From Chlamydoabsidia padenii (taxonomy: Eukaryota; Mucoromycota; Mucoromycetes; Mucorales; Cunninghamellaceae): 64,000 bases of DNA. How positions within the stretch are numbered: position 1 is the first letter of the stretch; each line of letters starts with the position of its first letter. A program made the translations under genes and the position numbers. Positions 2,531 to 59,419 of this stretch are shown one piece after another. Location of the stretch: contig JAIWND010000017.1 in assembly GCA_025330725.1 (NCBI GenBank), positions 620,001 to 684,000 on the forward strand. Reading direction: 5' to 3'. Below the pieces are notes generated by a model. The model made no database searches, had not been told where the DNA came from, and saw only the letters and a program-made list of their open reading frames with translations.

Positions 2531-2560
2531 GCGGGGCTTCAATTTATAATTGAAAGCCCG
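2531..2560. promoter_or_regulatory. Inverted-repeat promoter element
   Basis: GCGGGGCTTCAATT (2531-2544) is followed after three bases by its near-complement AATTGAAAGCCCG (2548-2560). It is two facing copies of the CCCGC/TTGAA element seen upstream of many genes here, about 75 bp before the start at 2457. Confidence 0.5.
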
Positions 2561-3219
2561 TTTGTGAGGAAAGTGAGGATTGTGAGGAAAGTGAGGAAGT
2601 CAAATTAGCCCCATAGGCTCCATTGTCAACATTTTAAGGAGCCTATGAGGCCTGAATTTTTCTGGGTGTGGTGACTCCAATCTGATGGTAACAGGAAGTT
2701 TTGATTGGCAGGCAAAAAAAATTGAATCCACTAAGAAATTTTTGATTAGCTAGAGAAAAAGCTTGAATTTTAAACGCAAACCACTGTGCATGGACAGTGC
2801 ACTCTTTTGATTTTTGGTAGGCGGGTGAATTGATCACGAATGCCGGTTAAACATATATGGATTTGTATAACAGAACGAGAGAAATAGTGGGGGGATATCG
2901 GAATATCTTTTCACCAATCTAACTGACAATATTTTTTTTTTTTTTTGGGTTACCAAGAACAAATTACAAACCGAAAACTACTATTGGACATGCATTCAAG
3001 ATAGCTTAATAGGTGTAAACTTGATCATGTACTACTACTTGATAACTGATGCTATATACCTTTTTTATTGTCCCCCTTTGAGTATACATAGAATTTAAAA
3101 GTCTAGCTAATCTTCGCCTTTGCCATGTTATATAATTGAAAGTGCTAATTTTCATGCGACTACAGAGGATGGCTTTTCGGAACTGGAGGGCGACTCATCA
3201 ATTTTTTTAATGCCCGGTA

Positions 3220-3232
3220 TTTCAAAACCCGC
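3220..3232 (+). promoter_or_regulatory. TTTCAAAACCCGC promoter element
   Basis: A close copy of the recurring upstream element, 106 bp before the methyltransferase ATG at 3339. Confidence 0.5.
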
Positions 3233-3338
3233 TCCGGCTTTTCACTGGATTGAAAAACACTCTTTCCCCACATTTCATTACTCTCTCTTTCTTTCTTCTT
3301 TAATTCTTTTTATACTTGCCAACAATATATCGTTTACG

Positions 3339-5490
3339 ATGCAGTCAAATCGAAAGCATTCTTGGATGTTTGGCTGGACTCCGCCATGGCATCGTAAAAC
3401 TAGTGACATGAATCAACACTCTTCGACAACTGGGCATCCACAACGATCAGCACGTAAACAAAGCCATTCGTCGTCCAAAGTCGCCACATTTAAAACTGAT
3501 CAGATATACTCCTCCAGCAACACAAATAGTAGTAATAGTTTCTCAGCACGCCAACCTGATCAAGCCATGGACACAGGCTCGCCTCTCTCATCATCAAACT
3601 CATCCTTCGCCAGCTCATTCAGACGCAACACAAAGGAATCCGTTTTGGATTTCTTTCATAGACGAAAAAGCAGCACACCATCGTCTACTATATCCTTACA
3701 GCAATCATCGAATGTTGGTCCCATGTCTTCCTATCCTCCTGGACGAAATTCTGGTCTATCAGCATTCAATTCTACAGCAGCACTCACTAATGGCTCAACC
3801 CAACCCTATACAACCTTACAAAGCACTAATCCAACAAATGGTGTTTTATCAACTTCATCTCCTGGTACTTTAACCAATCCTCATCATCAAGCGACAAACA
3901 TCGGCATCAATCCACCACCACCAACAGTAACACCAGCTATACATCAACACCATCGATTTCCTTTTGTAACTCATCACAATGACTCGATTGGTGCACAATC
4001 GCCAATACCTGAAGAACCTTGCTTTTCTTCACCTCCATCATCATCATCATCACATTATCATCCACAAGTGTCTTCCTTATCATCATCACTGACGTCTACT
4101 TTGGGACGTCCTTACGATACTCTGATGAAGAAGCAAGGTCTTTTTTATGAATACACGATGGATATGCAGGACTGCGCACCACCCACTATGGATGATACAA
4201 AAAGAATCACACTACGTCATGATCTGGTCAAATTAGCTTTGGATGGGTAGGGAAATTTGTAAATATGTTTAAACTCCGTATGTGTCTGATCTCTTCTCCA
4301 TTCCTTTTTTAGCCTTTTCAAAAGCCCATTGGAGCCTCAACAGGAAGGCGAAAGACAGGTCCTTCAAATTGGGTAAGTTGGGGTAAAAAAAAAAAAAGAA
4401 GAAAAAAAGAACGTGATAGGAACTAACTCATATGACCCTTTTTAAAAAATTCTAGATGCGGTAATGGGGCTTGGTGTATCGATTGTGCCAAGGAACATCC
4501 TAATTGGTTTGTGCTTGGACTGGATGATCGAAATGGCGGTCCCTTGATCTCAGCAGCTTCTGGCAAGAAAATGATGTCTGGTACGTCCTCCTCAACCTCA
4601 GCACCATCTAATCCAATTATTTTACCCAGCCACACCGTCACTTCCTCGGCGTCCATCTCCTCGTCATTGATGGGACTGAATACTCATGGCTGCAACTTTA
4701 CTTTTATTCGAAGTACAACCACTCTGGTGAACAGTCTCAAGATGTTTCCTGATGGCCAATTTGATTTGATCTATGGGCGCTTCTTGGCTTTGGCGCTTCC
4801 TCCTTGTGAATATGAAGATCTGATCTCCGAATGCTGGCGGGTATGTAAACCAGGGGGCTTTGTCGAATTTACTGAATTGGATATGCGCATCTATGGAACT
4901 CATGGTAGTGGGACTTTGATCAGGAAGCTTAATCAACAAGGTAATCAAGTGGACTACACTACAGAAAAAAAAAAAAAAGAAACATAGTATTAACACTTTT
5001 TGAAACTATTACTATAGTGGTGTCTGCCATGAAAAAGCAAAAGCTCGATCCAAGGTTACCAAGGCATCTTCAAGACTTATTCTTCAAGCTCCTAGTGGAC
5101 GATCAACCAGCAAGCAGCCATCGACGTCAAAACAGCTATCAAGTCAAATATAATTCTTTACCATTGGGTGTATGGGGTGGTCGATTAGGTGTCATGTTTC
5201 GTGATGATATTCATGATATACTGGACGCATTACATGTCACATCATATCCGGTGACCGATATTACGAATGGAAGCAACATTAATACTCCGGATGTAGTCGA
5301 TGAAGACGACGACAATCATGATGACGACTTTGATGATGATGACAGTATTGAAGACAAGGCCAACAAGAATAGGAATGGCCTTTTTGAAGAAGATTGGACT
5401 GCTACTACTGATATCTTGGATGATGAATTGGATTCTCAAAATGCTTTTATGAATATCTATCAAGTCTATGCCCAGAAACACAAGGATTGA
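3339..5490 (+). CDS. LaeA-like SAM-dependent methyltransferase
   Basis: Likely a class I S-adenosylmethionine-dependent methyltransferase of the fungal LaeA/UMTA-like group. Its substrate is unknown. There are four exons, 3339-4246, 4313-4372, 4456-4940 and 5018-5490, with consistent phases, giving 641 residues. The first ~300 residues are Ser/Thr/His-rich low complexity. The Rossmann fold begins with motif I, VLQIGCGNGAWC, split by intron 2 and followed by FVLGLD. A Ser/Thr-rich insertion of about 45 residues separates this from FDLIYGRFLAL and the WRVCKPGGFVEFTE motif. The tail carries an Asp-rich stretch. I chose the ATG at 3339 because the upstream extension is a CT-rich leader. LaeA-type proteins are known as regulators of secondary metabolism in ascomycetes, but many paralogues occur in Mucoromycota and no metabolite cluster is seen here. 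Confidence 0.85.
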
Positions 5491-6876
5491 AACTTTTCCC
5501 TCTCCACTCCCCTCCTATTATCTACTTACTTTAATTATACATCGTACCATAGTCATACTTTTATCTTTTTACCTACTTAATAATACTTAGTTTTGTATAA
5601 TATACTTGTTTGTTACCATTTGATGACAATAAACTATTTTTAACCTTTGTTTTATGAATCATTATGATCACCTTTGCCTTTATATATTTAGATACTATCT
5701 GCTGATAAGATAGGACATAGAATGTTTGACAGATCTTTTTTTAGAACTTATGCACCCCACAGTCATTTGTTTTATGTGTAATGACAAGTATCAGTTATAT
5801 CGAAAACCAAAGGATCACTTATGCTGGATGACCATGTCTTTTGGTTCACATCCCTTTGTGAACAGCATATGATTTGACAGAAGAATCAAACCCACTGTAT
5901 GTACCAACTCCATGGGTTATGTGCTGTACAATGCCGGTACAATATCAGAATATTCATCCTTGTGACACACTCTACCCAATTCAACTAATGTCTTCCCAAT
6001 TTCAAATCCCGCCATTCATGCAAAATGCCTTTCTTTATCAGGCACAAGTGCAGATCATTTCAGAATTCTTCTCAACTCGAAAAAGATTTCTATAGAATAG
6101 TAACAGATGGAGATATGTTTGCATGAATACCCTTTCTAACTAATTTAGTTAGTATTATGCAGAAAAAAAGAATAGAAAAGTACATTTTCTTTGTTCTGCG
6201 ATATTTGTCATGCAGCATATTAATTGTTTGGTCAGCAGCATAATAATTAATAGTGACTTTTTTCTTTCTTTTCCTTCCGATCTACATAGGAAGAAGCTGT
6301 CATCACTCATGGGATACAGAAAAAAGAAAAGAGCGGTTCACTCACTTCGGGATTTGAAAAACAAAAAAAGATTATGATTGGCTAGACATAAATAGTAACT
6401 TTCTACCATACCAAAAGTAAGTTACATAATCAAAAACAAAACTACAAATGCACAAGGATCGACATGATGCTTTTTCGATGACTTTTTTTAAACATGCGTG
6501 CATAAATTCTGTCTCCCCCACGATTAGAATATGAGGGAAATAATAGACGCAGAATGGGAATCTGCCCAATAGAAAAGGACATTAACCTTCACCACTTTAT
6601 TCAAGGAGGGGGAAAAAGGGCTTACTTGAGGGTATTTTGCCCTTGGCGTGAAATTGGCTCAGGCGCATTAAGGACGGGATCTGAATTCATGAGGCTGTAA
6701 AATAAAAATCCGCCTACTTTTTTTTTTTTCCTCCACCTTTTTCTTTTCCCCTTTCCACACTGTATTTTTTAATTCTTTCCCTTCTTCTTTTTTTTATTTT
6801 ATTAACCAACCTTCCATCTTTGTAATTATAGCGACTCAATTAACAATCACAACCACACTCTGCGACTTGTCTGATA
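5491..6876. other. Long intergenic region with an orphan element
   Basis: The proximal part is the 3' UTR of the methyltransferase, with an AATAAA at 5638-5643. A perfect TTTCAAATCCCGCC lies at 6000-6013, far from any start I can support. A weaker copy (ACGGGATCTGAA, 6674-6685) and AAAAATCCGCC (6704-6714) precede the gene at 6877. The short ORF at 5874-6095 has no protein-like character that I trust. Confidence 0.5.
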
Positions 6877-7611
6877 ATGGCATGCCAAAAACCATTGTCT
6901 TACTCAGTCCATTCGTCCTCACCTACTCACTCTAATGCGACAACAATGGCAGGAACCAAATGGCGAAAAAAGCTGACTCGATTATCAAAAAAGTTGCAAT
7001 CAGGATCAAGACAAGAGATGCCAATGACGGCGGCGGCGGCGGCTACTGAAAAACTGCTACGACGACCCAAGGCGACAGTACAAACAGAAGATCTTACTGC
7101 AAGTCAATTCGCTTCCATGGCAGGCATCAAGATCCAACGAGGTCGCTACCACCAAGAAACCGACGAACCCTCCATGACTTTTGACGACGACGACGACGAC
7201 GACTATAGTGACGAGGATAGCGACACGACTGAAATGCTTCCGTTCCAACAGCTGACAGTAAAAGCAACAAAGACGCACCAAGGTAGTCTTCCCTGTGTGA
7301 CATCATTATCCTCCTCTCGATCCATATGGGACGCACGCTTTTGGCAACAACAACAACAACCGAAACAGCAAAAAGATAAATCGGACGTCATGTATTCAGA
7401 TCTCTCCACAAATGATTCTTTATCTTCAGCAGCTTCGACTTTGGATACATGTCTTTATACACCTTCATCAAAACCTCGGGTTCTTCATAAAGGACGATTC
7501 CAAATTGTAATGGGAGATACTCCAACAAGTGAACCTCTTATTCGTACTGGATCCTCTGAATCAAGTAACAATGTGGTGGAATGGCATCGGAAAAGGGCAA
7601 TGACTCAATGA
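6877..7611 (+). CDS. Hypothetical low-complexity protein
   Basis: A single-exon ORF of 244 residues that I do not recognise. Residues ~29-45 are basic (WRKKLTRLSKKLQSG). There is an alanine run, a patch QFASMAGIKIQRGRYHQE, and then an acidic run of seven Asp (~103-110). After that come Gln- and Ser-rich segments and the C-terminal patch KGRFQIVMGD. No signal peptide or membrane segment is visible. Its leader is strongly CT-rich, as for other genes here. It converges on MPP10. Start choice is uncertain: an internal ATG at residue 24 (MAGTKWRKKL) is equally plausible. Probably a lineage-specific, largely disordered protein. Confidence 0.6.
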   Translation: MACQKPLSYSVHSSSPTHSNATTMAGTKWRKKLTRLSKKLQSGSRQEMPMTAAAAATEKLLRRPKATVQTEDLTASQFASMAGIKIQRGRYHQETDEPSMTFDDDDDDDYSDEDSDTTEMLPFQQLTVKATKTHQGSLPCVTSLSSSRSIWDARFWQQQQQPKQQKDKSDVMYSDLSTNDSLSSAASTLDTCLYTPSSKPRVLHKGRFQIVMGDTPTSEPLIRTGSSESSNNVVEWHRKRAMTQ

Positions 7612-8220
7612 ATCGCTCTTTCTTGGCCTCTCTCTGTTTCTCTCTCTCTCTCTATTTTTTATAATTTTATTCCCACCCCTCCCTTTCATTTGTTTATTAA
7701 TCTAACCATACAACATTATACCCTTTGAATCCATCATTTTACTTTTATGTATATTCTTCCCATTCTACAAACGTTATTATGACCATCTTTATACTACTTC
7801 CCATCACATGTTTATTTACTTGTCTTCCATCTTATGATGTGAAATTTACCATATACGTTGTTGTTTTGAACACAACCCCACATATGATCATTAACAATAT
7901 TGTTACCCCACCTTCCTTTTAGTTTATGCCCTCCATTTTTTATTTTATATATGTACATAATTTATATATCCAGATCTATCCTAATAAAGAAAAGTTTGTG
8001 GGACAAACATTTTATCATATACATAAACTCAGTCATTGTATGTAAAAACATCACTTTATCAATTATGTCTATAAAATGTTTGGTTTATTGTATTGTATGA
8101 TATAAAATAATAAAGAGAGAGAGTGTGTAAAAAAAAAAAAAAGATGAGTATGTAGACGAATGATGATACTAAAACTATACTAGGACTAATAGATGTTAAT
8201 GCGCGGGAAGGGGTTTGATT
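7612..8220. other. Convergent 3' UTR region
   Basis: AT-rich sequence between two convergent stop codons (7611 on + and 8221 on -), with a CT dinucleotide run at ~7636-7652. I see no gene in it. Confidence 0.6.
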
Positions 8221-10458
8221 TTAAAAGAGAGATGCCGAGGTAACCGTCTTGTCTTGTTTCATTTTTTTGCCATCCTTGCCAATGACAGTAACGTTCTTTT
8301 GACCGATCAGTTCCTTGACAGCCTTGGTCTTTGATTGTCGATCCACAAAACCACGAGCCGATGCAGGTCTTGATTTGGCGAGTAACTCCCGTTCCTTGTC
8401 CTTGATTGCATTTTCCTTGCGCTTGGCCATCTTCTTTTGTTTTCGGGCTCGTCGTCGTTCTTCTTGAGTCATTTCGCTTTGGTCCTTGATGTCGCCCTGT
8501 TTCTTGTCGTAGACTTCTTCTGGTGCCAAGAGAGTTGCGTCCGATACATTGACAGGGATGATTTCTTCCATGCTGATAGATGCCGCATTGCTGACAACAG
8601 ATAATTCCGCCTTGGCCTATTAAAAAAAGAAAAGAAAAAAGAAGAAGAGAAGAATATTGGGTTAGAGCTGGTTATGTAGGGTCGATCAAGTGGTTTCAGT
8701 TGGTTGACTTACTGGTTTAGGTGTAAAGTGGAAGTTGCTTAAAGAATCCAGTTTTTCAGAGAGTTCAGAGAACATGTTACGGATTTCTTGGTGTTCCTTT
8801 TCCAGAGCTTCGTCCTTTTCATGAGATTGATCACCAGTTGATTTTTTGACAAAGTCTTCTTCGTACAAGTCAGCCAAAGATTTCTTCGATTGAGTGTCCA
8901 CCAGTTCCACCCGTTTCGATGGCATCCATGGTCTTGCTGAAGGATCAGCTTTTCGTTCAACATCATCAAACGTATTCTATTAAAAGATACATAAATGTTA
9001 GACGATGGTTGTGATATAATATTGTGTCACTTACTTCACTAATACGTTTTCTGATCAGATCTTCCAACACGTTAGTAGTTTCTTGAGTGATGACTGGTAC
9101 CGGCTTGACAGAGTGATCGAATTCCATATCTTCTTCCAATAAACTATTGACGGGTCGTGACTTGACTGATGCTTCACCTTTAAGAGTCCAATGTCGTCCA
9201 TCAATGTTTTCTTGTTCGAATTGTTCGATTTGTGCCTGGACCCGTTCTTGTTGGCGTTGATGTGCTGATTTGTGTTCCTTTTCTTCTTCATCGTCTTCAT
9301 CAAACAGTCCACGTACTTTGTTGGGCGTATCGTCTTCATCGTTGTCGGAATCGTTTTCGTCTAGTTGTTCCTCTTGATCCATATCTTCACCTTCATCATC
9401 GCTATCATTATTGTTGGCAAATTTAACCTTTTTGTTTGTCGTTGATGGTTTCGCAGGAGCCATGAAGAAATCCTTGAAGGTGATATCTATTAATCAAAAT
9501 TAAAAGCCCATCAATTCATATGTAATAATCATCCCTTTTTTATGTTTTATTTTACCTTGAGCATGTTCATCTTCGTCATCGTCATCATCTTCGCCATCCA
9601 AAGCATCCAGATCGTTGTCAAAGTCAATTTCATCTTCATCATCTTCACGGTCAGAATCCATATCCAAAGCTTCTTGTTGTTCAGTCCATTTGTTGAATTC
9701 ATCCAGATTGAAAAAGTCGTCGTCCACTTCAGATCGTTTAACAGGTTTAGTGACACTAATCCAACCAGTTGGTAGTTAGTAATAAGAGAGAGAGAGGCAA
9801 AGGTCAGTCCACCTTTCATGATTTGTTTTTTCTATTCTGTTACTGTATTCTTACCTAGAGTCTATCTTATCCAAGTCGTCTTCATCCGAGAGATCTTCAA
9901 ACATTTCTTCTTCTTCTTCTTCTTCTTCATTGTGTTCTTCGTCTATATCTTGTTGATCTTCCAAATCCATATCGTCTTCGTCTTCGGGATCGGTCTGTTC
10001 TTGTTCGTCAATGCTGAGTTCCATATCTTCCAAACCAGAGTTAGAGTCATTACCGTCCGAAGATTCAGTATCAATTGTTGAGGCCCAAACCGAAGGCTTC
10101 GCCCATTGCTTGAGGGATGTCTTGCAGTAGTTTAAAAAGGGTTCGTTTTGAGTGACCAGTTCTTCCCAAATCTGATCATGATCGAATCCTTCTGTTAAGA
10201 GTTCTGGGAAAGGTGAGAATGATTGATCTTCATACTCTTTTGCTAGATCAGGTAAAAAGAATAGGATTAGTTATAAAATAAAAAGAGAGGTGTAATAGAG
10301 TGAAGAGGTGACTTACCAGTGTCATAAAGATGTTTCGTTAAAGCAATCGATTGTTCAACAAGTTTGTGATCCGTCGAGAAGAAAACCTGAGGTTTTTCCA
10401 CAGTCGATTTGATATAGTCAGCCGTCAGGGAAGAGTGTGTTTTCGACTTTGCCACCAT
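8221..10458 (-). CDS. U3 snoRNP protein MPP10
   Basis: Component of the U3 snoRNP / small-subunit processome, acting in the nucleolus in 18S rRNA processing with IMP3 and IMP4. There are six exons: 10458-10317, 10242-9855, 9755-9556, 9486-9035, 8976-8713 and 8616-8221. All phases agree, giving 613 residues, typical for the family. The N-terminal part has FSTDHKLVEQSIALTKHLYD. A long acidic Glu/Asp region follows, including DDDFFNLDEFNKW and KVRGLFDEDDEEE. The conserved core follows with LEDLIRKRISE, NTFDDVERKADPSARPW and KKSLADLYEEDFVKK. The C-terminus is basic, with ERRRARKQKKMAKRKE. It converges with the hypothetical gene at 6877-7611. I found no good copy of the common upstream element before its start. 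Confidence 0.95.
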
Positions 10459-11451
10459 AGTGTTGTTGAGTAAAAGTCAAGTGAATGGATCACAGAAAGA
10501 AAAAAAAAAAAAAAGGTATATGGAAGTGAAAGAGATACAAAAAAAAAAAAAAAAAAAAAAAATCGACTTCTTCACGGAACTGAGTTTGATAATTAATGAG
10601 GTTCACCGTCACGCATGGCTTTAAAGTCTGTGAATGAGAGTTGTTTGTCTAGTGTCTAACTAAATAAAAAAAAAGTTACGTGATGAATATATCACTTAGC
10701 CAAATCTGAATAAAGTCAAGAAGGTGACATGGTTGCTCTAAGAATAAAAAAAAAAGTAACCCCTTGAAAGTGGTTTAATTTTGGTTCCCGAGCATCCGTT
10801 CACGTTTTTGACAGATGATTAATCAGTGAACTGAGATTTTGGATATCTTCTGATAACTTTGACAACAAGCATAGCTAATAATAACAATCAAAATGGAAAT
10901 GGAAATGAAAATGAAATACATGACCGGTGTCTTGATCGATCCAAGTGTACCAAGACTTCATGCGCTTTCAATGTGTATGTGAGGGTCAAGACAAGATGGT
11001 TGTTAGGGTCCTAAATCATGGTTTTTATTTGTAAAATGACAATTAGATAGACAATAATAATAACAATAAAGAGGAATGCAACTGCAACAACATATATATA
11101 AGATGTGAGAGTAAGTGTGTATGTTTATGAGCCTGTTTTTAAAGATATTATTCATGTATATACAGTTATGGTAGCAGTGATAAAAATAAAAAAAAGGGAA
11201 AGAGAGAGAATAAAGGAGCTATTGTATAATGATGTTTGTAATTATATATAAAGGATGATTTTTTTAGGTTTTAAAAAAGGGAAGGAGACATAAAGGTGAG
11301 TTGGTATAAACTGATAAAGAGAGAGAGAGAGAGGAGGGGGAAAGTAAGAAATCGACGGATGATCAACAAGACAGTAAAGTGATGACGATGTAGGAGACGA
11401 TGTTCTTTTAAAGGAGTAGTAAAGCCAGAATAATAACAATTACAAGTCGAA
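10459..11451. other. Intergenic region, AT-rich
   Basis: Contains A-runs (10500-10514, 10540-10561) close to the MPP10 start, then the 3' flank of the gene ending at 11452. I recognise no gene or element. Confidence 0.5.
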
Positions 11452-33229: not shown

Positions 33230-33964
33230 TTCCATTGTATACACTTTATCTTTTACCCAATAACTGGATAAATGGTTTATTACTTGCTGCATATTGTTGG
33301 TGCCGTAATTGGAATTCCGACATTTAATAGGTGGCTCTTTGCGACCATATCATGTTATTAGGTGGATACTATTGACCCAACAAACCTACAACGCTATGAC
33401 CTTTGCTGATGCCATAATATAGTTAGTTATAGATTAAATTAGATCTAGAATATTTGTTATACTATTGGAAATAATAAAACCCCCACTTTTTAAACTATAT
33501 TCTCTTATAAAGTCTCCCCCTTTGAGTCATGCATATAACCACTTTTTTTGATCAACTGGTTACAGTGTGACCCCGACTTGATAGTTACTTATATTTGTCT
33601 TGTCATGATCAAAGTGTGATAGATTCAATGTCTTATTGTTATTGAATTTGGAAAATTACAGTCAAAATGTATCAAAGAAGATCATGTACATTCCATTTTG
33701 CTTATAGGGAAGTTGATCCAAATCATGCTAAAAAATCAGACGGACATTTAATTACAACATTTCAAATCCCGCCATATGCCGACATGCCAGTTTTTTACAA
33801 GTGTTATTTATTATTCGATGATGGTTAAAGCTAAAACTTATGTAATAATAATATAGTGGATGTGTAGGGACAAAGTTAAAATAAAACCAAAGACAACATA
33901 AATAGGGACAAAAGACATGATGTGACATAAACAAGTAAAACACAGCGATGATTATATCCTTTAT
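33230..33964. other. Intergenic region with an orphan element
   Basis: Both flanking genes end here, yet a perfect TTTCAAATCCCGCC lies at 33770-33783 and TTGGAATTCCGACA near 33308-33321. No ORF of note. Confidence 0.5.
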
Positions 33965-34782: not shown

Positions 34783-34853
34783 AATGATGAAAGAAGGAAG
34801 CCTTTTTTCCCACTTCACACTATTTCCACTTTTTCAACCACCCACAAAAACAA

Positions 34854-34883
34854 TTCATATCCCGATAAAGCGGGGATTCAAAA
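34854..34883. promoter_or_regulatory. Paired inverted promoter elements of uS19
   Basis: TTCATATCCCG (34854-34864) faces GCGGGGATTCAAAA (34870-34883) across five bases, 72-100 bp upstream of the uS19 ATG. This is the same inverted arrangement as at 2531-2560. Confidence 0.5.
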
Positions 34884-43567: not shown

Positions 43568-44026
43568 ATGTAGATGCACCCCACTTTATTTTATCATCAA
43601 TCACTGCACATCTTCTCCCCTCCCCCTTTTAACCCTATTTATTATACTATTATACTATTAGCTTATCTTGATTATATTTTATTGCTTTTATCAATGATGA
43701 TGATATTAACCTTTATTGTATACAAAAATAAAAAATAAACTGTTTTGTGATATTATCGAACATGTATGATCATAGTGTATGAAGACAATGGAGATTAGTT
43801 TTATTTTATTAAATAAAGGGATTACAAGAGAAGGATGTGTGATAAATGCTAATCTACTTGATTTGTTTTATATACATACAATAGACGATCGGAAGATTTA
43901 TGACAGGGAGGATGGCAGTAGTAGTTAGTATGATACATGAGTAGAGTCAAATGTTCAATAATAATAATAATAATAATAAGATATTATGATGGTTGATGCA
44001 GAGGAGGGATAATGATGTATATTATT
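43568..44026. other. Convergent 3' UTR region
   Basis: Between the PIP5K stop and the DR1 stop. Contains AATAAA-type signals (~43727-43740) and an (AAT)n run at 43958-43979. No gene seen. Confidence 0.6.
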
Positions 44027-48357: not shown

Positions 48358-48358
48358 T

Positions 48359-48879
48359 ACTTGAAGAGAAGAGAAGTCATTATGGGGATAGTAAAAGGAT
48401 TCAAAAGGAAGAGTATATACAATAAGAAAAAGGAAGAAAGTTTACAAATAAATTATATAAAGTATCAAATAAAGAATAATGAAGAGAGTAAAAAGGAGAT
48501 GATGTAAAATGGAATGAAGAATAACGAATCTAAACAACTGATACAAGGCCAAAACAAAGGAAAAAAGTCAAACCCGTTAATATAAAGTCTCACATTGTCG
48601 GAGTGTGGAAATGATTGAACCCGGACGAGCCGATGATTTCATGCGTCGGTGTATCATGATACCAGGATGATGATTAGCCTTGACAAAGTCGGGGGACCAT
48701 GAATGTTATAGTCTCATCAGCCAATAGTAGTAATCATTGAACATGGTCATGTTAGACATCCATCTCTTCAATCACTCTACACTATTTTTCAAGTCCCGAC
48801 AGATGCTTTAAGGCATTTTTCTCTTTTTCCTCTCTCTTCTTTTTTCTTTCCTTCTTCCATCCTCACATATATCAAAACA
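48359..48879. other. Divergent promoter, RNF10 and SYLF-SH3
   Basis: TTTTTCAAGTCCCGAC at 48785-48800 serves the SYLF-SH3 gene. GATTGAACCCGGACGAGCC near 48613-48631 is a loose match on the RNF10 side. No other gene. Confidence 0.5.
48785..48800 (+). promoter_or_regulatory. TTTTTCAAGTCCCGAC promoter element
   Basis: Recurring-element copy 79 bp upstream of the SYLF-SH3 ATG at 48880. Confidence 0.5.
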
Positions 48880-50519
48880 ATGGACAAACTCTCAAAAGTC
48901 ACCTCTTCAATCAACTCTCCTTTGCCAAGTAGTTTATCAAGTAAGACTAACAAGAAGGCATATGAATCCATTTACCAAATGATACTAACTAATCCGTGTA
49001 GGCGAATGCAAAAAAGCCGCCAAGATTCTTAACAGCTTTATTGGTAAGAAAAGACAAAGTGGAACCAATACTCGACTAGTCCAACTCCCTCTTATATGTA
49101 TGTCTTTATTCCATAGATCCAGGACAAGGCTTGGACAAGATGATTCCACCCAATATTTTGGAAAATGCCCATGGACTTGCCATCTTCTCAGTGCTTAAAG
49201 CTGGCTTTCTCTTCAGCGGACGTGCTGGCTCTGGTCTAGTTGTTTCAAGGTAACAAGTTAAAAAACGACTTTACTGGTATTCTATTTACTAACCTTACAC
49301 CGCTTACTTTTCTCTTAGGCTGCCTGACAATGGTAAGGGTTTGACAGAATCGCACTAGCCATCGGGCATTAAAATTAACCTGCTATTTTTGCTTTACTTA
49401 GGCTGGTCTGCTCCAAGTGCAATCTTTACTGGTGGTATGGGGGCCGGTGGACAAATAGGTACTTATCACAAACACAATAAATAAGGAACAAAGAACCATT
49501 GTATATAACAGTCTTTTTCTTTAATAGGGGCTGAACTCACTGACTTTGTTTTGGTGCTGAACTCCAAGGATGCGGTCAAGACATTCAGTCAATTTGGAAA
49601 TGTTACTCTTGGTGGAAATGTATCAGGTATGTTGATTAATCATAAATGGGATAATTGTACAGACTGATACTCACTTTTGATTCTACCTAGTTGCGGCTGG
49701 ACCTATGGGACGAAATGCAGAGGCATCTGGATCAGCAAGCTTGAAAAATGTTGCAGCTATCTATGCATACAGTAGAACAAGGGGTCTCTTTGCTGGCGTA
49801 TCATTAGAAGGCTCTGTGATTGTAACACGCGGTGATGCAAACGAAAAGCTCTATGGACGACGAGTGACTGCCAAGGAACTGTTGGATGGATCGGTTTCTC
49901 CTCCTCCCGAAGCGGACGCCTTGTATCGTGCTTTGAATGCCAGATTCCACACTCTTGGTAATAACACTGGTACTCACTATCAACAACGTGTAATAGAAAA
50001 CGGATCATCACCATCAAGGTACAAAAGCTCAAATATATCTGCCCCTGGAACGATTCGACAACCTCCTCCTCCTCGACAATCGGTTGGATATGGTGCGCCT
50101 TGTCTTTTACCACCGCCAGCGTCACCTCACAATGGATATCAGCACTCTTCTACCAGCCCGCCTTCTTATTCTTCCTCACATCAAACCCAATCGACATCAT
50201 ACCAACCACGAGCGGATGTCAAGCGTCCTCCGCCCCCACCTCCAGTCAGTCGAAAACCCGCTATGTCAACACCTCCTGAACCTACAGCTCGTGTTATTTA
50301 TGCATTTGCTGGTGAACAAGATGGTGATTTAAGCATGAACGAAAACGATATTGTCACGATCATTCATCAAACTGACAGTCAGGACGATTGGTGGACTGGA
50401 AGGATTGGATCAAGGCAGGGTATTGTAAGTATTAGTTAATCTTGGTAAAACAGAAAATATACTAATTATCTTTTTACTCTTGGTTGTAGTTTCCAGCCAA
50501 CTATGTACAGCTTCAATAA
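48880..50519 (+). CDS. SYLF-SH3 actin-patch protein (Ysc84/Lsb3, SH3YL1-like)
   Basis: Lipid- and actin-binding endocytic protein that works with the Arp2/3 activator Las17/WASP at actin patches. Eight exons give about 390 residues, all phases verified. The SYLF domain follows a short N-terminus (MDKLSKVTSSINSPLPSS): AKILNSFIDPGQGLDKMIPP, then AHGLAIFSVLKAGFLFSGRA, GSGLVVSRLPDNGWSAPSAI and GAELTDFVLVLNSKDAVKTF. GGNVSVAAGPMGRNAEASGS and AYSRTRGLFAGVSLEGSVI follow. A Pro-rich linker leads to the C-terminal SH3 domain (ARVIYAFAGEQDGDLSMNEN, DDWWTGRIGSRQGIFPANYV) ending QLQ. Exon 4 is only 14 bases (49319-49332). Confidence 0.95.
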
Positions 50520-50896
50520 AATTTGCTCATTTGATAGAATAGATCCCCCATCTTTTTTTATTTTTATAGTTATGATAGCCATTTTAACTTGACCTGTATT
50601 CTATACCCTTCTCTCACTTTATTTGCAATTAATTTAATTCAAATCTTTATCCATGTTAATAAAAAGTATTGTTTTATGTGGTTTAATATAATTCATAAGG
50701 TGATGTTTTATGTTTATGCTTATTTATTCTCACGGTGTAACTGGAATTACTGGGCGTCAAGGAAGAATTTGCTGACTTATGGCAATTGTCGGGATTTGAA
50801 AATCAGTTTTAAAGCAAAGGAAAAAAAAAAAAAAAAAAAAGGCTATTGAATAACCTCGCATCTCTTTCCTCCATTACTCTACACTATTTGAAAAAC
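50520..50896. other. SYLF-SH3 3' flank and ACAD promoter
   Basis: TCGGGATTTGAAAA at 50789-50802 lies 94 bp upstream of the ACAD start, followed by an A-run (~50821-50840). No gene. Confidence 0.55.
50789..50802 (-). promoter_or_regulatory. TCGGGATTTGAAAA promoter element
   Basis: Recurring-element copy, reverse orientation relative to the acyl-CoA dehydrogenase gene, 94 bp upstream of its ATG. Confidence 0.55.
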
Positions 50897-52369
50897 ATGG
50901 CGACCAATTCTCTTATTGACCTCAAGAAACTATCTCCCAAGTTCCAAGATCTATATGCCAAGGCAAAGGACTTTGTAGAAGTAAGTAGATATATGAACTC
51001 TGCTTTTTTCTTTGTTGAATCCACTCTTTACTAATTAACTTTACTTCTTCTCTTATTATTATTTATATATTAGAATGACTGCATTCCTGCTGAAAAGATC
51101 TTTGACTTGCAAATGGGTACAGGTGACGATCGCTGGAAGGTAAATTGAAAAAGAAGAATACAACAAATGACAAGATGAAAGTACTGTACAAACTAACCCT
51201 CTTTTCTTTTCTGAATAGGTTATCCCTCCTGTGTTGGAAGAACTCAAAGCCAAAGCCCGATCTCTTGGTCTGTGGAATCTTTTCCTTGGAAAGACTTATG
51301 CTGAAGGTGCTGGTTTGACTAATGTAGAATATGGTTTGATTGCTGAATTGACTGGTCGGTGCCCCAAGCTTGCCCCTGAAGCGATGAACTGCTCTGCTCC
51401 CGACACTGGTAATATGGAAGTCTTGGCTAAATACGGTACTTCTGCTCAAAAAGAAAAATGGCTGAAACCTTTGATGGATGGCAAGATTCGATCGGCCTTT
51501 GCCATGACTGAACCTCGTGTAGCTTCTTCTGACGCCACCAACATTGAATTGAACATTCGTCGGGAAGGAAACGAATACGTCTTGAATGGTCTCAAATGGT
51601 GGATCTCTGGTGCTGGTGATCCTCGTTGTGCTCTTTATTTGGTGATGGGTAAATCTGATGCTGGAAATCCAAGCCCGTATCGTCAACAATCTATTGTCTT
51701 GGTGCCTGCTGATACGCCCGGTGTGACCGTCGTCCGTCCTTTACCTGTCTTTGGCTTTGATGATGCACCTGAAGGTCATTGTGAAATTGTCTTTAAGGAT
51801 GTACGTGTGCCTATTGAAAACATTATTCTTGGTGAAGGTCGTGGGTTTGAAGTCATTCAAGGTCGTCTGGGTCCTGGTCGTATTCATCATTGTATGCGAA
51901 CTATTGGTATGGCTGAACGTGCCTTGGAATTCATGATGGTCCGTGTCACTGATCCTGCTCGTCGTACTTTTGGTAAGGGGCTTTATGAACATGGTACTAT
52001 TGTGTCGGATATCGCTCGCTCTCGTGTCGAAATTGATCAAACTCGATTCCTTGTCTTGAATGCTGCTCAAAAGATTGATGAAGGTAACGCCAAGAGTGCT
52101 TTGAAGGAAATCAGTATGGCCAAGGTAAATTATTAGGGGGGCGGGGAATATAGAGGCTGATGAATATTATACGATACTAAACACGATTACGTTTTATACC
52201 TGTGTAGATTGCTGCTCCCAACATGTTACTCTCTGTAGTCGATCGGGCTATTCAAGCACACGGGGCTGGTGGTCTTTCGACTGATTTCCCTTTGACCAAA
52301 TTCTATGCCGGTGCTAGAGCTCTTCGCTTCGCCGATGGTCCTGATGAAGTAAGTTTATATATATACATG

Positions 52370-52402
<33 letters not shown>

Positions 52403-52654
52403 GAAATGATCGGTGTGTTTAACATTCTTATTCTCAATGTGCAATCATCTATAGGTCCATATTAGGTAAATATTACATAAAGAAGAAGAAAAGCTTGAGA
52501 TTTCAAAAGTCAATCTACTAACTTTGCTACTTTTTTTATTTTTTTATCTTTTGATAGTCAACTCGGTCGCAATGAACTTCGTCGTGCAGAAGAAATCCGT
52601 GCCAAATTCAAATCTCGAGCCGAAAAAACTCAAGCTCGCCTATCCAAACTTTGA
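50897..52654 (+). CDS. Acyl-CoA dehydrogenase (ACAD10/11-like)
   Basis: FAD-dependent acyl-CoA dehydrogenase for beta-oxidation, closest in style to the dehydrogenase domain of ACAD10/11. There is no kinase domain upstream, so it is a stand-alone enzyme. Six exons, 50897-50980, 51074-51139, 51219-52124, 52208-52348, 52455-52465 and 52558-52654, are fully in phase and give 434 residues. Motifs are [20 protein letters not shown] (FAD/substrate binding), [34 protein letters not shown] and [17 protein letters not shown]. The C-terminus ends [19 protein letters not shown] and a basic tail. No clear presequence is seen, though the N-terminus ([20 protein letters not shown]) is compatible with a peroxisomal or cytosolic location. 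Exon 5 is 11 bases. Confidence 0.95.
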
Positions 52655-53177
52655 AACCAGACAATCTATATCAATAGTTACCACCCCTCATTATCTCCCC
52701 TCCATTCCTATGTAGGTTATTATTATTTTATGCATCTATTATCAAAAATAAAAACCATGATCTTGTTTGTAAACTATGAATGCTACATTCGAATGATTGT
52801 AACCTATAAAGATAGTTAACCATTTTCCATAATCCACTCTGGGTGCGGATTTTGAAATATTGCATAAAATGTATTTTTCGAATGCCGCTGTCATGCATTT
52901 TGTTGTCATGCCATCATTAATGGCAAAAGATACATATATGTATGTATACACACTTTTTTGGAGCCCGGATAGAATCATACCTTCACGCTGTGTTGAATAC
53001 CGATAACCACTACCAACAAATAATACCCTCTAATAATAAGATCACCAGTTGTTTATTTATCTAGTTAAATTTAAAAAAGTAATGTATAAAAGAGTATTGA
53101 TGGGAAGCTATGGATATGACTAATCTAAATGTACAAGATAGAATTAAACGCGGTTCCTATAGCCAGGAAGCATCAAA
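52655..53177. other. Convergent intergenic region with an orphan element
   Basis: 3' flanks of the ACAD and GH9 genes. GCGGATTTTGAAAT at 52845-52858 matches the recurring element although no start codon is nearby. No gene seen. Confidence 0.45.
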
Positions 53178-55334
53178 TTACCAAGTATAAGATAGAGTGG
53201 CCAAACCAGTTAACAAAGAGACCAACATCAAAGAAGTAGACGGACCCAGACGGATAGCAAAGGAGCTGGACGCAATAGGTTTGGAAGATTGAGTAGATTG
53301 GCTAGCATGTTGATTACCCGATTTGATTTCCTTCTTGCCAATGTCAATGTTGTCGTTGTTGTTGCTACTGTCATCAGAAGCAGGAGGAGCAATCACCTTT
53401 TCATCATGAGTCTTTTGGATACTTTGTTTGACAATAGGAGATGCATTCAATGTAAAAGCACGTTCAGCACCTTTGCCAGGGTAAAGGGTATCCAACAAAG
53501 AATCAGCAGATTCAGGATTCATCAACAATTTCCAAGAGTAAGAAGACGCCATTTCACCCCGAGGACATCCCTTGTTGCAAGTATGGTAACAATCATCCTC
53601 TGGCCAGTTTGGAGGAGCTGAAGCATTGGGATGAGACCAACCAAGATCCAGACCACAATCAGTATAAGGTTCGAATTTATCCACACCATAGTAATCAATT
53701 AAACCAGCAATAGCACCAGTCCAGGCAGAGTTGTAATCTTGAGTCACTTCAGAGTATTCATAGTTGGATCGATCATCATACCAGCTATCATCCACACTGG
53801 GTCCACCTTCCACCGCACCATAAAGGATAAATCGTTGAGCCGTCTTACTTTCGGAAAAGTCCTTTTCGACCTTGTCTTGGAATTCACCGCGCATAGGATA
53901 ATCAATGTAACTGTTATAAGAAGACTTGTGATATGGTTTTGAAGGATAATTATCACCAAAACCAACCACCCAAGAATAGCCATAGTCACCGAGAGCATAG
54001 TTGATTTGTTGAGTGGCAAAAGTCACCATTTGCTCTGCTTCTTTTCCTTTATAATCCAAAGCCTTTGCCATTGCCAACATTAAGAATGCCACATTACCAG
54101 AATAGCCAACAGATCCCCAGTGTTCGATATAAGCCAGACCACGAGGAGTATACTTGACAATTTGATTAGGATTGGGTAAAAATTGATTAAAGTATTCCAT
54201 CGCATTCTTGTAAAACATGTCTTCTTTGGTGAAGAGATAAAGTAAGACATGAAGAGCACCACCTTTTTCGTCCCAAGAGTATTCCGTGAAAGAGTCCGCT
54301 GCCTTGGCGTACCATTCTTTAGCAATATCCAACCATTCTGGATCCTTGGTAGCCGCGTAAATCCAAGCTGCACTCCAGGCCAGTTCATCCACATAGTGAG
54401 TCGAAGGATACCAAAAAGTAGCCCATTGGAAAGCATTATCTTTGGAGCTAACATAACTGCCTTGATGTTCAGTCGCCAGTTTGAATAGTCGTTTAGCACG
54501 GTTCACCAAGTCATCCGCCATTGTTGCATCATAAGGTCGCCACGCAATGGATATCGCCGCCATGGCTGCACTGTATTCACCAATGATTTCAGAAGAGGGA
54601 TTGTCGGGTGTAATATATGATGCTTCATGAGGTAGACCAGTAGGGACCCATTGTTCATATTCTTCAGGAGGGCCCCAGTAGTTAAAGTCAACATCGAGTT
54701 CGATCAATTTGGAGATGGGTCCAAGTGCAGAAGTTCCCAATTGGCCAACCACATGAGTATCGTTATAATGAGCGTTGACAAGATAATCTATTAAAAAAAT
54801 AAAGAAAGAAAGAAAAAAGAAAATGAGAAATGGGGGCGATCTGAGATTTTGTTATGAAATGAAAAATTCAATACCCGATCCCCATTTTAGTAATTCTAGC
54901 CCTTCAGCCAATTCATCGACGGATTTCATAGCATCACCAAAGACCACCACATTGAAAGCCAATTGAGTGACAGTCCAACCAAAAGGTAATCCCCATTTCA
55001 TTGTATTAGCAGCTTCATACCAGCCATGTGACAAATCTTCGCCATATTTCCCCACGCACACTTTGCATGAATCACCTCGCCAGGCCATTCGCTGATAAGG
55101 TAAATGACCCGATTTTTGAGCATGGTAAAAAAGATAACTTTTATGCATCACTTCTGCATAGTTATACTTGGGGGTAAGAGGGGCAACATAAGTTCCATTC
55201 ATGGGTGGTATAGGAGGGTGCATCTTGGGACTTGGTGAATCATCATCATCCTCTTCGATTACTTGTGATAACGCCCTGCTGGTGAATCCACCAAGTAGTG
55301 CAAAGATTGCAATACTATTTAAGCTTAACTTCAT
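53178..55334 (-). CDS. GH9-family glycosidase-like, predicted GPI-anchored
   Basis: Glycoside hydrolase family 9 (endoglucanase type) by sequence, secreted. There are two exons, 55334-54875 and 54787-53178, giving 689 residues. An N-terminal signal peptide (MKLSLNSIAIFALLGGF ... ALS) and a C-terminal hydrophobic tail after a Ser-rich stretch suggest a GPI-anchored cell-surface protein. GH9 landmarks are MAWRGDSCKVCVGKYGEDLS, GEYSAAMAAISIAWRPYDA and WKLLMNPESADSL. The GH9 signature with the catalytic acid is intact: WYDDRSNYEYSEVTQDYNSA (Glu at 53748-53750). The canonical YDAGD block holding the catalytic base is replaced by YEAAN (residues 106-110), so ordinary inverting cellulase activity is doubtful. 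A Cys-rich insert (CYHTCNKGCPRGEM) lies near the C-terminus. Confidence 0.88.
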
Positions 55335-56183
55335 TTCTCTAGTGGATGGAAACTAAACCGGAATTAAAGGAAAAGAGAACCATTCACACTGTTCGTATCA
55401 ATCTTTATTTCTCGGCTCTTTTTTTTTTTCTTTCTTTTTTTTTTTTCTTGGGGGACTCTTTGTTTATATCAAAAACTGCTTATAATGTAACTTTGAGGAT
55501 CTCCTAATGTTTGATTTCGGAAACAAACATTGTTTTTGACATCGGATGGATTCTTGAGATTTTCAAATCCCGCCTTGATCAAATCAGGTGCTAGATTTGC
55601 ATTGTTCGTTTAGTTGTTGATTGTTGTCAAAGCAAGATTTGTGGAACTGTCATGTTTGTCATTACGATGATACACCAAAACAATTTCACTACTATGCTTT
55701 CTCGGGATAATAGAATTCGAATCCGATCCAAGTACACTTAATCTCCGACAATCCTTCAACAAATATTAACAAGGGATCAGTTGTCTTTTATGTACCATTC
55801 ATCATCGTTGGAAGGTGATTTACTGTGAATCATGCATCTTTCAGGTACAACTTGTAGCGGGATTTGAATAATTTTTGATCCACAAATCGAGGCAATCTGT
55901 ATTTCTTTTCCAGGAAGAGTTATAATATATAATAGCATATTAAATTTCAAATATCTTACTTACCGTGAGAAATAAACGAGGTATTTGATTTACGAACTAT
56001 AATTTGTTTTCTCTATGCTTGAAGTAGTTTGATCATGAAAAAAGTCGGTCTGGTGTCACCAAACCAATTTCATTCGCCGCCCGCAAAAAGCCACTCTCTT
56101 TTTTTCTTTTCTGTATCCGAACCTTTTTTTTTTTTTTTTTTTTTTTCCTCCTTCTTCCTTCTTTCTTTTATTCTATTGTTATC
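55335..56183. other. Divergent region between GH9 and UTP14
   Basis: Carries three element copies: TTTCAAATCCCGCC at 55561-55574 (227 bp from GH9), GCGGGATTTGAA at 55858-55869 and TTTCATTCGCCGCCCGC at 56068-56084 (99 bp from UTP14). T-rich runs lie near 55419-55448 and 56126-56146. No further gene. Confidence 0.5.
56068..56084 (+). promoter_or_regulatory. TTTCATTCGCCGCCCGC promoter element
   Basis: Variant of the recurring element 99 bp upstream of the UTP14 ATG. Confidence 0.4.
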
Positions 56184-59100
56184 ATGCCCCGACCACAACA
56201 GAAAAAAGGAAACTTCAACAAAGGCTCTAAGAAGTCTTCTACTTCTTCAGGCAACAAAGGAAAGCAACCCTACCGAAAAAAACAAGATATTAACGATGTA
56301 TTCGAAGCCGACGATGATCAACAACAATTACAACGTAAAGGTCATGACATGGACGAAGTGGATGACTATGAATATCAAGTAGGCGACATTCAAGGTGACG
56401 ATGACGAAGAAATTGATTCTGATGAAGCTTTTGATGATTCTGATGACGAACGCTTTGATCACTTTAAATTCAGTGGATCCACTAAGGTAACATCTGTTCT
56501 TATGCATAATTAAACCTGGACTCTAGTGTATTCTAATCCACCTTGTCTTCTTTTTTATATATATATATATAGCCCTCTGACAAGAAGCATCTCAAGAAGA
56601 AGGAAATCTCTACTGTCAACAATATGGAAACAGAAATCAACATGGATGAATCAGAAGGTGACCACGACGACGACGACAGCGAAGAAGATATGGATGGTGA
56701 TGATTATATGGACATTGCAGATATGCTTGATGACAACGACTCACCTGCAATGACTGTCGACAAGGAATCCGTTCGTACTCTCTTACCTGGTGATGATGAT
56801 GACAGTGTTGACGATTTGGAAACGGAGGAATTCATGGGCTTCTCTGACAATGACGACGACGAAGAGGATCATGATCAAGATGTGGTGGACTTTATCACTT
56901 CCTTGGATACTAAGAAGCGAAAACGTGCGGTGGATAAGGATGGCAACAAAAAACTCAAACCCTTGGCCGAACGATCTGAAGCGTACAAGGAAAATGAATT
57001 CAACTTGCCTGTGCAGCAAAAAACAACCATTGACGGCAAGAAGAAGAAACTGGATTTGAAGGACCTGATGGGTTCTTTGGATGGTGAAGCTTCTCTCAGT
57101 GATCTTCGTGATACTTTGAAAACAATGGCGGCCAACAACAAGACTCAAGCTACTTTGGATGCTCCTCTGCCTCAACGTATTCAAGATCGTATGGAACGAC
57201 AAGCTGCTTATACTGAAGCCAACAAGGAAATCGCTCGCTGGGAAAACACTGTTAAAGGAAACAGAGAGGTAAGGTGATACATAACTAATCTAGATAAAGA
57301 AAAACTAACCACCCTTTTTTATTATCTTACATATGACCTGTTTAGGCCGATCATCTCTCCTTCCCCATGCAACAATCTGTCACTAGTCAAACACTCACCA
57401 GTGCAGCTTTGGCTAGCAAGTTTGTCCCTACTAATGATATGGAACAACAAATTCAACAAGCCCTACAGGATGCCGGTATGAAAGACGAAGAATTAGAAGC
57501 CTTTGAAGCCCTACAACTTAACAAGCTCACGGTGGAAGAAGTCGAAGCTCGGCGGAAGGAACTTGGTCTCATGCGCGAACTGATGTTTAGACACGAAATG
57601 AAGGCTAAACGGATGAAGAAGATCAAGAGCAAGAGCTACCGCAAATTGAAACGACAAGAAAAGGCTCGACTGGATGAACAAGTGTCTAAACTACAAGAAC
57701 TGGACCATGAAATCACTCAAGAAGATCAACAAGAAGCGGCCATGTCTCGGGCGGAAGAACGTATGACTCTGAAACACAAGAACACTGGTAAATGGGCGAA
57801 GCGTGCTTTGGCTCGTGGTCAACAAGACGAAGGAACTCGAGATGCTATTATGGAACAACTGCAGCGTGGTGAACAATTACGCCGCAAGATCCAAGGTCAG
57901 GACTCTGACAGCGATGATGGCTCTAATTATGAATCTGATGGTATGGACGACAAGGAACGAACAGCTATGGAATTGGATGCTTTGGCGGCTGATTTGGACA
58001 AGGATACCCAACCCAAAAAAGGAATCTTCGCTATGAAATTCATGCAAGAGGCTGCTAAACGTCAAGAACAAGCTACTAGGGAAGAATTGGACGAATTCCG
58101 CAATGAATGGTTGGATGAAAACAGCGATAATGACGACAAGGATGCTACTGAACCTGCTTACTCTCATGTGGCCAATAATCCTGGTCGAATGGCATTTGGT
58201 GCAAAGGTGGTAAGTCTAATAATTGATGGGATAGGGATCTTGTAACTAACGAATGTGAACGGTATAGGGTGCAAATAAAAGGACTGGATCTGCTGGCAAC
58301 CCCGAAGACAACACAACTCCTTCCACGGTCAAGGTTAATGAAGCTGGGCAAATCGACAAGCTATCCCATGGTGCTGGACATACTACTCGTACCACTGGAT
58401 CTGTTAAAACATCGGCTGCTCCTACACCTAGTCCTCTGGCTGATTTAGATTCGATCGAAACTAATCCTTGGCTACAAAATGATACCTCTCGCTTATCCAA
58501 GAAAGCTAGCAAGTCCAACAAAGCTCAAAAGGGGAAGAAAATCCAACCAAAGCAAGACGAAGAAGAAGATGTGGAATTAGATACAACCAACGTGCTCTCA
58601 GTCAAGAAAACAAAGACACCAGCAAAATCAACCAAAGTCTCCTCCAGCAACAATGACAATGCCACTTCCACACAATCAACAACAGTATCTGTCAGCCATG
58701 ATGTCAACAACAACGATTCTGATGACGGTGATGATGATGTGCCAGCTCCTACAATGGTGGCGACCTCAAACAAATTGGCCTTTAGTCAACGTGAACTTGT
58801 GGCTCGTGCGTTTGCTAATGACGATGTATTGGAAGAATTTGAAGAAGAAAAGAAGGCGGTTATTGCTGAAGATGGTGACAAGGAAGAAGATCTGACTCTA
58901 CCTGGTTGGGGATCGTGGGCTGGGAACGGTTTGAAGAAATCCAAAAAGAAGATCGTCAAGGTTACCAAGGGGATTGACGCTAGCCAGCGAAAGGACGCCA
59001 AAAAAGCCAATGTCATCATCAATGAAAAACGACACAAAAAGGTAATATTAAACAAGGACAATTTGCACTTTATTATACTCACCATATTCTTTATCTAACC

Positions 59101-59289
59101 TAGTCTGAAAAATATCAAGCCGCTCAAGTACCCTTCCCCTTCAAAAGTATGGAACAATACGAACATTCTTTACGTGCGCCTGTTGGTCCTGAATGGAATA
59201 CTCGCGCTTCTTACCAAAAGATGACCAAACCAAGAGTGATGACCAAACTTGGAACGGTGATAGATCCTCTTTCTGCTCCCTTTAAATAG
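56184..59289 (+). CDS. U3 snoRNP-associated protein Utp14
   Basis: Small-subunit processome component that activates the helicase Dhr1 to release U3 from pre-rRNA. There are five exons, 56184-56486, 56573-57268, 57346-58209, 58268-59041 and 59104-59289, in phase, giving 940 residues. The N-terminus is basic, and repeated acidic Asp/Glu tracts follow (~90-250). The conserved core includes DLKDLMGSLDGEASLSDLRD and LDAPLPQRIQDRMERQAAY. It continues with KIKSKSYRKLKRQEKARLDE, a typical Utp14 motif, and ERMTLKHKNTGKWAKRALAR. The C-terminal domain has LTLPGWGSWAGNGLKKSKKK and ends PVGPEWNTRASYQKMTKPRV then KLGTVIDPL. All landmark blocks are present, so it is probably functional. Confidence 0.96.
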
Positions 59290-59372
59290 ATCATCTTTAC
59301 TATTTATTTACATTATTATTCATATCATTCATTTTACTCCACATGTACACTTTTTTTTTGCAATAAAAACAT

Positions 59373-59419
59373 ATTCAAACCCCGCCTTCGTCCCACTTAA
59401 AGGGGCGTTTAATCCCGCG
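59373..59419. promoter_or_regulatory. Two promoter elements of the RdRP gene
   Basis: ATTCAAACCCCGCC (59373-59386) and GTTTAATCCCGCG (59407-59419), 81 and 48 bp upstream of the RdRP ATG, within a short 178-bp spacer after the UTP14 stop. Confidence 0.55.

Follow-up and report, generated by a model that had tools for sequence, protein, structure and literature searches.

A 15-bp motif enriched upstream of gene starts in the Mucoralean fungus Chlamydoabsidia padenii is a candidate site for a general regulatory factor

A 15-letter motif, WTTCAAATCCCGMY, recurs throughout a 64,000-nucleotide stretch of DNA from Chlamydoabsidia padenii (Mucorales, Cunninghamellaceae; C9:620001-684000, hereafter the window), where it lies ahead of many predicted genes of unrelated function. 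The motif is real, strong and genome-wide. Reb1 (TTACCCG) and Abf1 are general regulatory factors of yeast, and sites for this kind of factor are known from yeast and animals. From the sequence we consider it reasonably probable that a single abundant, sequence-specific DNA-binding factor of this fungus, working like Reb1 or Abf1, recognizes WTTCAAATCCCGMY. Such a factor would bind the site in either orientation. Its sites are densest 60–140 base pairs (bp) ahead of start codons, a position that probably lies a few tens of bp upstream of where transcription begins. A single protein may read the whole site and, once bound, would keep the DNA free of nucleosomes and support transcription at a large fraction of genes, irrespective of what they do.

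To define the motif, we compared the window with 250 kb chosen by position from elsewhere in the same genome (C1:1,000,001-1,200,000 and C2:300,001-350,000), giving a sample of 314 kb out of 34.2 Mb in 95 contigs. Aligning the 124 sites that lay within one mismatch gave the consensus WTTCAAATCCCGMY, outside which the flanks carried almost no information. The least variable letters were TT, AA and CCG, whereas more variation was seen at the C of TTCAAA and at the TC that precedes CCG; for the trailing CC there was just a preference, with C or A in the first position and C or T in the second. The original prediction, a reading of the window made from its letters, had given the consensus as TTY(A)AANYCCCGCC; the motif itself stands, and its letters are here corrected to WTTCAAATCCCGMY. 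At 9 bits, the third letter was C in 152, T in 55, G in 25 and A in 15 of 247 sites.

The abundance of this word is far beyond that of its controls, for which we used reversed words, a reversed matrix and column-permuted matrices. Across the whole genome, the exact 11-mer TTCAAATCCCG has 3,811 copies compared with 2 for its reversed control, and CAAATCCCGCC has 908 compared with 2. Within the window, CAAATCCCG occurs 10 times (reverse, 0; an order-2 Markov model predicts about 0.4), and the standouts besides simple repeats were AAATCCCGC and CGGGATTTGA, the latter with 10 copies against 0.12 expected. An unseeded count of 9-mers, allowing one mismatch, in 110 upstream regions placed GGGATTTGA at the top, present in 51 regions against 2 for the reversed word. 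We then built a weight matrix from intergenic sites of the 314-kb sample and applied a cut-off of 10 bits. A full scan found 224 sites, compared with 11 for the reversed matrix and 7–33 for twenty column-permuted matrices; a short-cut scan, which misses a few sites, found 222, compared with 11 for the reversed matrix and 14–42 for five permuted ones. Chance is excluded as the origin of this excess. Scaling up the matrix count suggests on the order of 20,000 sites genome-wide.

The two halves of the motif are rigidly spaced. TTCAAA and CCCG were separated by exactly one base in 53 intergenic copies, and each of the other gaps from 0 to 12 bases was seen 0–3 times. Genome-wide, gaps of 2–14 bases (13 gaps pooled) gave 1,100 copies compared with 451 for the control, a figure that is an overcount, as some of these matches consist of the motif with another CCCG after it. 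The rigid one-base gap favours a single protein surface over two independent factors.

We located the sites relative to 125 genes predicted in the sample by a gene finder written for this analysis, leaving genes that scored 10 or less out of most site locations and those below 20 out of start-anchored counts, which kept 113 of the 125; distances run from the site centre to the nearest predicted start. The 502 introns in genes scoring above 10 had a median length of 71 bp and mostly GTAAGT donors. The 124 sites within one mismatch comprised 108 in intergenic DNA (97.8 kb), 9 in introns (38.4 kb) and 7 in exons (177.7 kb). At 10 bits, the matrix placed 195 sites in intergenic DNA, 17 in introns and 12 in exons, for which permuted matrices averaged 6.0, 2.9 and 10.6, respectively; exons were thus at chance, introns somewhat above it (0.44 sites per kb) and intergenic DNA about thirty-fold above it. 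Only 3 sites fell in the first 60 bp before the ATG. The density rose to 4.5–9.4 per kb at 60–140 bp and was 3.2–3.8 per kb at 140–180 bp and 1.0–2.9 per kb beyond. An upstream density no higher than elsewhere had been named at the outset as the result that would count against the element; we found instead that the peak density contrasts with 0.07 per kb in exons.

The association with genes was equally clear when counted by gene. In the full scan, the number of genes with a site was 56 of 113 at a limit of 150 bp, 77 at 300 bp and 90 at 500 bp, and the short-cut scan gave 55, 76 and 88 at the same limits. Twenty permuted matrices reached at most 3, 5 and 9 genes (ranges of 0–3 within 150 bp and 0–5 within 300 bp), so a comparison of the shuffled kind that had also been proposed did not refute the element. 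Because the matrix was trained on the same sample, we ran a held-out test with a matrix built from C1 and C2 only: 13 of the 23 window genes had a site at 60–180 bp, compared with 0–1 for 20 permuted matrices. Among divergent spacers, 28 of 29 contained at least one site. The sole divergent spacer without one, C1:1,168,184-1,168,571, has an RPB5 gene on one side and a gene for a proteasomal ATPase on the other.

Orientation was neutral, as originally proposed: within 220 bp of starts, 37 sites had the same orientation as the gene and 43 the opposite one, with median distances of 101 and 105 bp. This neutrality favours action as DNA over action as RNA. When 69 promoters were aligned on their nearest site, at a median of 102 bp from the ATG, a stretch rich in pyrimidines and poor in G extended from about +40 to +130. 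A 5′ leader would be expected to look like this, and we infer a transcription start about 40–60 bp beyond the site. In the zone 180–30 bp upstream of starts, T- and CT-rich runs were strongly sense-biased (AAAAAA, 253 sense and 618 antisense).

The genes that carry the motif appear to be of mixed function. Pfam confirmed the Tim10-type, condensin, ribosomal protein (S19 family), histone-fold and RdRP genes that had been named as unrelated neighbours of the element; the histone-fold gene is compatible with DR1, and the Sec24 gene is unconfirmed. We also found no functional bias of motif genes in Pfam matches (E ≤ 0.001), which were obtained for 9 of 20 genes with a site and 8 of 20 without. For this comparison, searched with the largest exon only, both sets came from outside the window: 20 random picks among the 59 genes having a site within 300 bp, and 20 of the 21 genes lacking one within 500 bp.

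The sites share several properties with those of Reb1 and Abf1 in yeast, which are likewise orientation-neutral, stand at many unrelated promoters and lie roughly 100 bp before the start codon. The likeness to Reb1 extends to a W-rich flank beside CCCG, although here AAATCCCG replaces TTACCCG and there is an extra TTYAAA half. In animals, the motifs of multi-zinc-finger factors such as M1BP, ZNF143 and YY1 are likewise long, continuous motifs at many proximal promoters, and differ in sequence. The factor itself is possibly a multi-finger C2H2 protein, a Reb1/TTF-I-type Myb protein or E2F/DP.

Several observations weigh against the reading as a general regulatory factor site. Of the 222 sites, 101 are intergenic and more than 300 bp from any predicted start, and 77 are more than 500 bp away, 12 of these in locally repeated DNA. 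Unlike the yeast sites, the motif is also abundant in convergent spacers, of which 15 of 28 hold a site (35 sites in 20.0 kb), and tandem spacers contain 1.5 sites per kb beyond 300 bp, compared with 3.1 within that distance. The far sites are as strong as those at promoters (medians of 16.9 and 16.8 bits), and the leader-like stretch was absent at 75 far sites (one-sided P = 0.87 against 1,200 random positions). Because the far sites are strong and lack such a stretch, promoter action alone fails to explain the distribution. When the zone 180–30 bp before starts was compared with other intergenic DNA, A/T and CT runs were the most enriched words, and AATCCC was found 39 times against 17 expected. 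The start codons, moreover, are gene-finder predictions, of which one was checked against a database protein: the RdRP start at 59468 (+) agrees with P0001 (97% over 1,248 residues, with the same first residue).

We considered whether the far sites might be unannotated promoters and set this idea aside, as leader composition gave no signal; undetected genes, untranslated exons, enhancers and architectural sites are each a possible source of some of them. An exact-consensus site stands in a convergent spacer of the window (33758-33774), and a similar one, of 26.1 bits, lies at C1:1,172,255. The motif occupies the upstream zone of many unrelated genes in either orientation, as yeast general regulatory factor sites do, and is not found chiefly at promoters; for this reason we claim that it may work like a general regulatory factor site, not that it is one. 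The original description of a general core or proximal promoter element is upheld for the proximal promoter. Its core-promoter part is unsupported, because the distance to the start varies by about 100 bp, orientation is free and so many sites lie more than 300 bp from starts.

The same distribution might mean that the site is primarily architectural, a boundary, nucleosome-positioning or chromosome-organizing intergenic element whose promoter peak is a by-product. The occupied convergent spacers, the equal strength of promoter and non-promoter sites, and the density in tandem spacers beyond 300 bp, which far exceeds that in exons, are all consistent with this explanation. However, the density at 60–140 bp is higher than in the bins between 200 and 1,000 bp by a factor of about 2–9, and sites show no regular spacing: neither a fixed distance nor phasing was found in the 314-kb sample. 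We think a primarily architectural role unlikely.

Another explanation is that the motif is read by the E2F/DP proteins of the fungus, which after the loss of pRb would have changed from cell-cycle regulators to general promoter factors, with a longer, shifted site, GCGGGATTTGAA, replacing GCGGGAAA. According to PMC4862756, zygomycetes lost pRb and retained E2F, the consensus of which is GCGSSAAA; measured against this site, the motif shares GCGGGA and has TTTGAA in place of AAA. Six E2F_TDP loci exceeded the Pfam cut-off (L034–L039), and the two that were read have well-preserved E2F-type helices in one case and DP-type helices in the other, so both proteins are present. A search of the genome for the pRb A domain (RB_A), run without a positive control, gave no match. 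The contact residues of E2F/DP nevertheless look ordinary, which counts against a changed binding site, and the motif has AAATCCCG where E2F would require the TTTSSCGC/GCGSSAAA core. Genome-wide, TTTSSCGC is barely above its reversed control (2,172 compared with 1,813). The words TTTCCCGC, TTTGGCGC, TTTCGCGC and TTTGCCGC, pooled, have no copy in 32 kb of promoter DNA, where AAATCCCG has 31, although this zero is weak on its own because the four words are scarce throughout, with 5 copies in the remaining intergenic DNA. E2F consensus words thus show no promoter enrichment.

The MCM genes gave a mixed result for E2F/DP. Four of six MCM upstream pieces (1.0–2.6 kb) contained a site of at least 16 bits, one of the four, MCM_b, including a locus that had been fetched for its motif and having a second site as well. 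None of the six contained TTTSSCGC. These S-phase genes therefore resemble other genes, and they are not evidently richer in the motif. The MCM start could be read with some confidence at one of the six loci, where it is 115 bp from the site. We judge reading by E2F/DP to be distinctly unlikely.

The motif had also been likened to the animal CDE/CHR tandem, and a true CDE/CHR element would be read by a MuvB/DREAM-type complex with LIN54. The likeness is superficial. According to PMC4974476, the LIN54 consensus is TTYRAA, which the TTYAAA half fits (as TTTGAA or TTTAAA), and a GC-rich partner stands beside it on the same side as in the animal element. By the third letter, 207 of 247 sites could fit TTYRAA; TTCGAA is rare. 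The spacing also differs, as PMC5716687 places the CDE four nucleotides from the CHR, and the gap between TTYAAA and CCCG is one base. Furthermore, TTCGAATCCCG, which should suit LIN54 equally, has 215 copies compared with 3,811 of TTCAAATCCCG; its control has 1, so the variant is not absent, and its copies may include tRNA T-arms. Searches of the genome gave no match for the LIN54 CXC domain (profile and typed query) or the LIN9 DIRP domain, in both cases without a positive control and with introns able to split domains. Motif genes are of mixed function, with no cell-cycle bias seen, and a true CDE/CHR element is very unlikely. It is somewhat less far-fetched, though still improbable, that a rigid unit joining an E2F-like half (GCGGGA) to a CHR-like half (TTTGAA) represents a rewired cell-cycle code, now a general promoter and intergenic element that E2F/DP possibly reads; the rewiring would have followed pRb loss, without detectable MuvB, in an early-diverging fungus.

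Two further explanations involve tRNA genes and repeats. The TFIIIC B box is GGTTCRANTCC, which TTCAAATCCCG resembles, and the 11-mer can be read in a tRNA T-loop, so that the sites might be T-arms or B boxes. The GG that a T-arm needs, however, is present in at most 27 of the 3,811 TTCAAATCCCG copies, which refutes this origin for most sites. Among 124 sites the preceding base is T or A 115 times and G 5 times, and the single tRNA in the 314-kb sample has no site on it. The probability of this explanation is negligible. For that tRNA, a tRNA-Phe (L023:3858-3930 (-), C1:1,143,858-1,143,930), a 13.0-bit site lies at C1:1,143,972, 42 bp outside the 5′ end of the gene.

Alternatively, the sites could be the remains of a transposable or tandem repeat carrying the word, and a repeated unit of about 229 bp does carry the motif at several places in C1. 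Yet DNA that recurs within the sample holds 13 of the 222 sites (a count that covers repeats with copies inside the sample and misses copies outside it), and the flanks beyond the motif are almost devoid of information. A repeat origin is disfavoured for the bulk of sites, and we regard it as extremely unlikely. The unit itself is motif-bearing, occurs in both orientations and is 74–95% alike between copies. It had no Rfam match at the gathering threshold, at which Rfam over the whole sample gave one tRNA only, and it is possibly an undescribed non-coding RNA gene family.

The window contains 41 sites of at least 10 bits (42 by the full scan), 26 of which are listed in Table 1; the remaining 15 are mostly weak (10–13 bits) or inside predicted genes. 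Of the 19 positions given in the original prediction, all are intergenic by the gene finder, and 17 fall on a site of at least 10 bits when the best matrix score within about 16 bases is taken; 56068 scores 9.2 bits and 59407 scores 0.4 bits. Their distances, originally given as mostly 48–115 bp, are corrected here: 15 of the 19 lie at 73–140 bp, with the density peak at 60–140 bp, 59407 lies at 56 bp, and 22334, 34854 and 34870 lie at 210–297 bp. Of the five exact copies of TTYAAAYCCCGCC, 59374 was among the positions listed and the other four went unnoticed (6001, 33761 and 55562 on the forward strand and 45169 on the reverse). The window also holds a glycosyl hydrolase family 9 gene, here in a Mucoralean fungus (53178-55334, -).

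Table 1 Motif sites in the window and copies of the repeated unit. Distances are from site centre to predicted start.
Feature	Position	Strand	Setting	Original prediction
Motif site, 10.9 bits	2529..2545	-	79 bp before start 2457 (-)	2531
Motif site, 20.7 bits	3218..3234	+	140 bp before start 3366 (+)	3220
Exact-consensus site, 25.5 bits	5998..6014	+	871 bp before start 6877 (+)	missed
Motif site, 20.4 bits	6345..6361	-	524 bp before start 6877 (+)	
Motif site, 16.0 bits	6672..6688	-	197 bp before start 6877 (+)	
Motif site, 22.4 bits	14233..14249	-	80 bp before Tim10-type gene start 14160 (-)	14235
Motif site, 17.1 bits	15795..15811	+	111 bp before start 15691 (-)	15797
Motif site, 14.1 bits	20668..20684	-	121 bp before start 20554 (-)	20669
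Motif site, 22.6 bits	21041..21057	+	494 bp before start 20554 (-)	
Weak motif site, 12.4 bits	22332..22348	+	210 bp before start 22129 (-)	22334
Motif site, 14.3 bits	25185..25201	+	99 bp before start 25093 (-)	25186
Motif site, 18.3 bits	26470..26486	+	97 bp before condensin (Cnd1) gene start 26575 (+)	26472
Motif site, 13.8 bits	31989..32005	-	73 bp before start 32070 (+)	31991
Exact-consensus site, 24.6 bits	33758..33774	+	735-bp convergent spacer, no predicted start near	missed
Motif site, 15.5 bits	34851..34867	+	280 bp before ribosomal protein S19-family gene start 34578 (-)	34854
Motif site, 13.1 bits	34868..34884	-	inverted neighbour of site 34851..34867	34870
Motif site, 14.0 bits	40091..40107	+	78 bp before Sec2p-like gene start 40020 (-)	40093
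Motif site, 15.9 bits	40178..40194	+	165 bp before start 40020 (-)	
Motif site, 19.3 bits	44803..44819	-	110 bp before histone-fold (CBFD_NFYB_HMF) gene start 44700 (-)	44805
Motif site, 19.3 bits	44977..44993	-	284 bp before start 44700 (-)	
Exact-consensus site, 24.9 bits	45168..45184	-	475 bp before start 44700 (-)	missed
Motif site, 19.3 bits	48785..48801	+	87 bp before Ysc84/SH3 gene start 48880 (+)	48785
Motif site, 24.3 bits	50787..50803	-	102 bp before acyl-CoA dehydrogenase gene start 50897 (+)	50789
Exact-consensus site, 25.9 bits	55559..55575	+	232 bp before GH9 gene start 55334 (-)	missed
Motif site, 22.5 bits	55855..55871	-	321 bp before Utp14 gene start 56184 (+)	
Motif site, 22.3 bits	59371..59387	+	89 bp before RdRP gene start 59468 (+)	59373
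Unit of about 229 bp	L024:7906-8415	both orientations among copies	just ahead of CTCTACTAAGATTTGG	
Unit of about 229 bp	C1 sample 145215-145889, 155091-155653, 157895-158517, 161656-162131 (add 1,000,000 for C1)			

Among the matches listed for open-licence PubMed Central papers, we saw neither this word nor a general promoter motif of Mucorales described. A 15-bp motif with thousands of exact core copies offers a direct handle on the factor by pull-down, and the motif may help to predict gene starts in such genomes. The CHR-like half, together with the retained E2F/DP genes, makes reuse of a cell-cycle code testable. More broadly, the motif opens the question of how general regulatory factors originate and turn over outside Dikarya.

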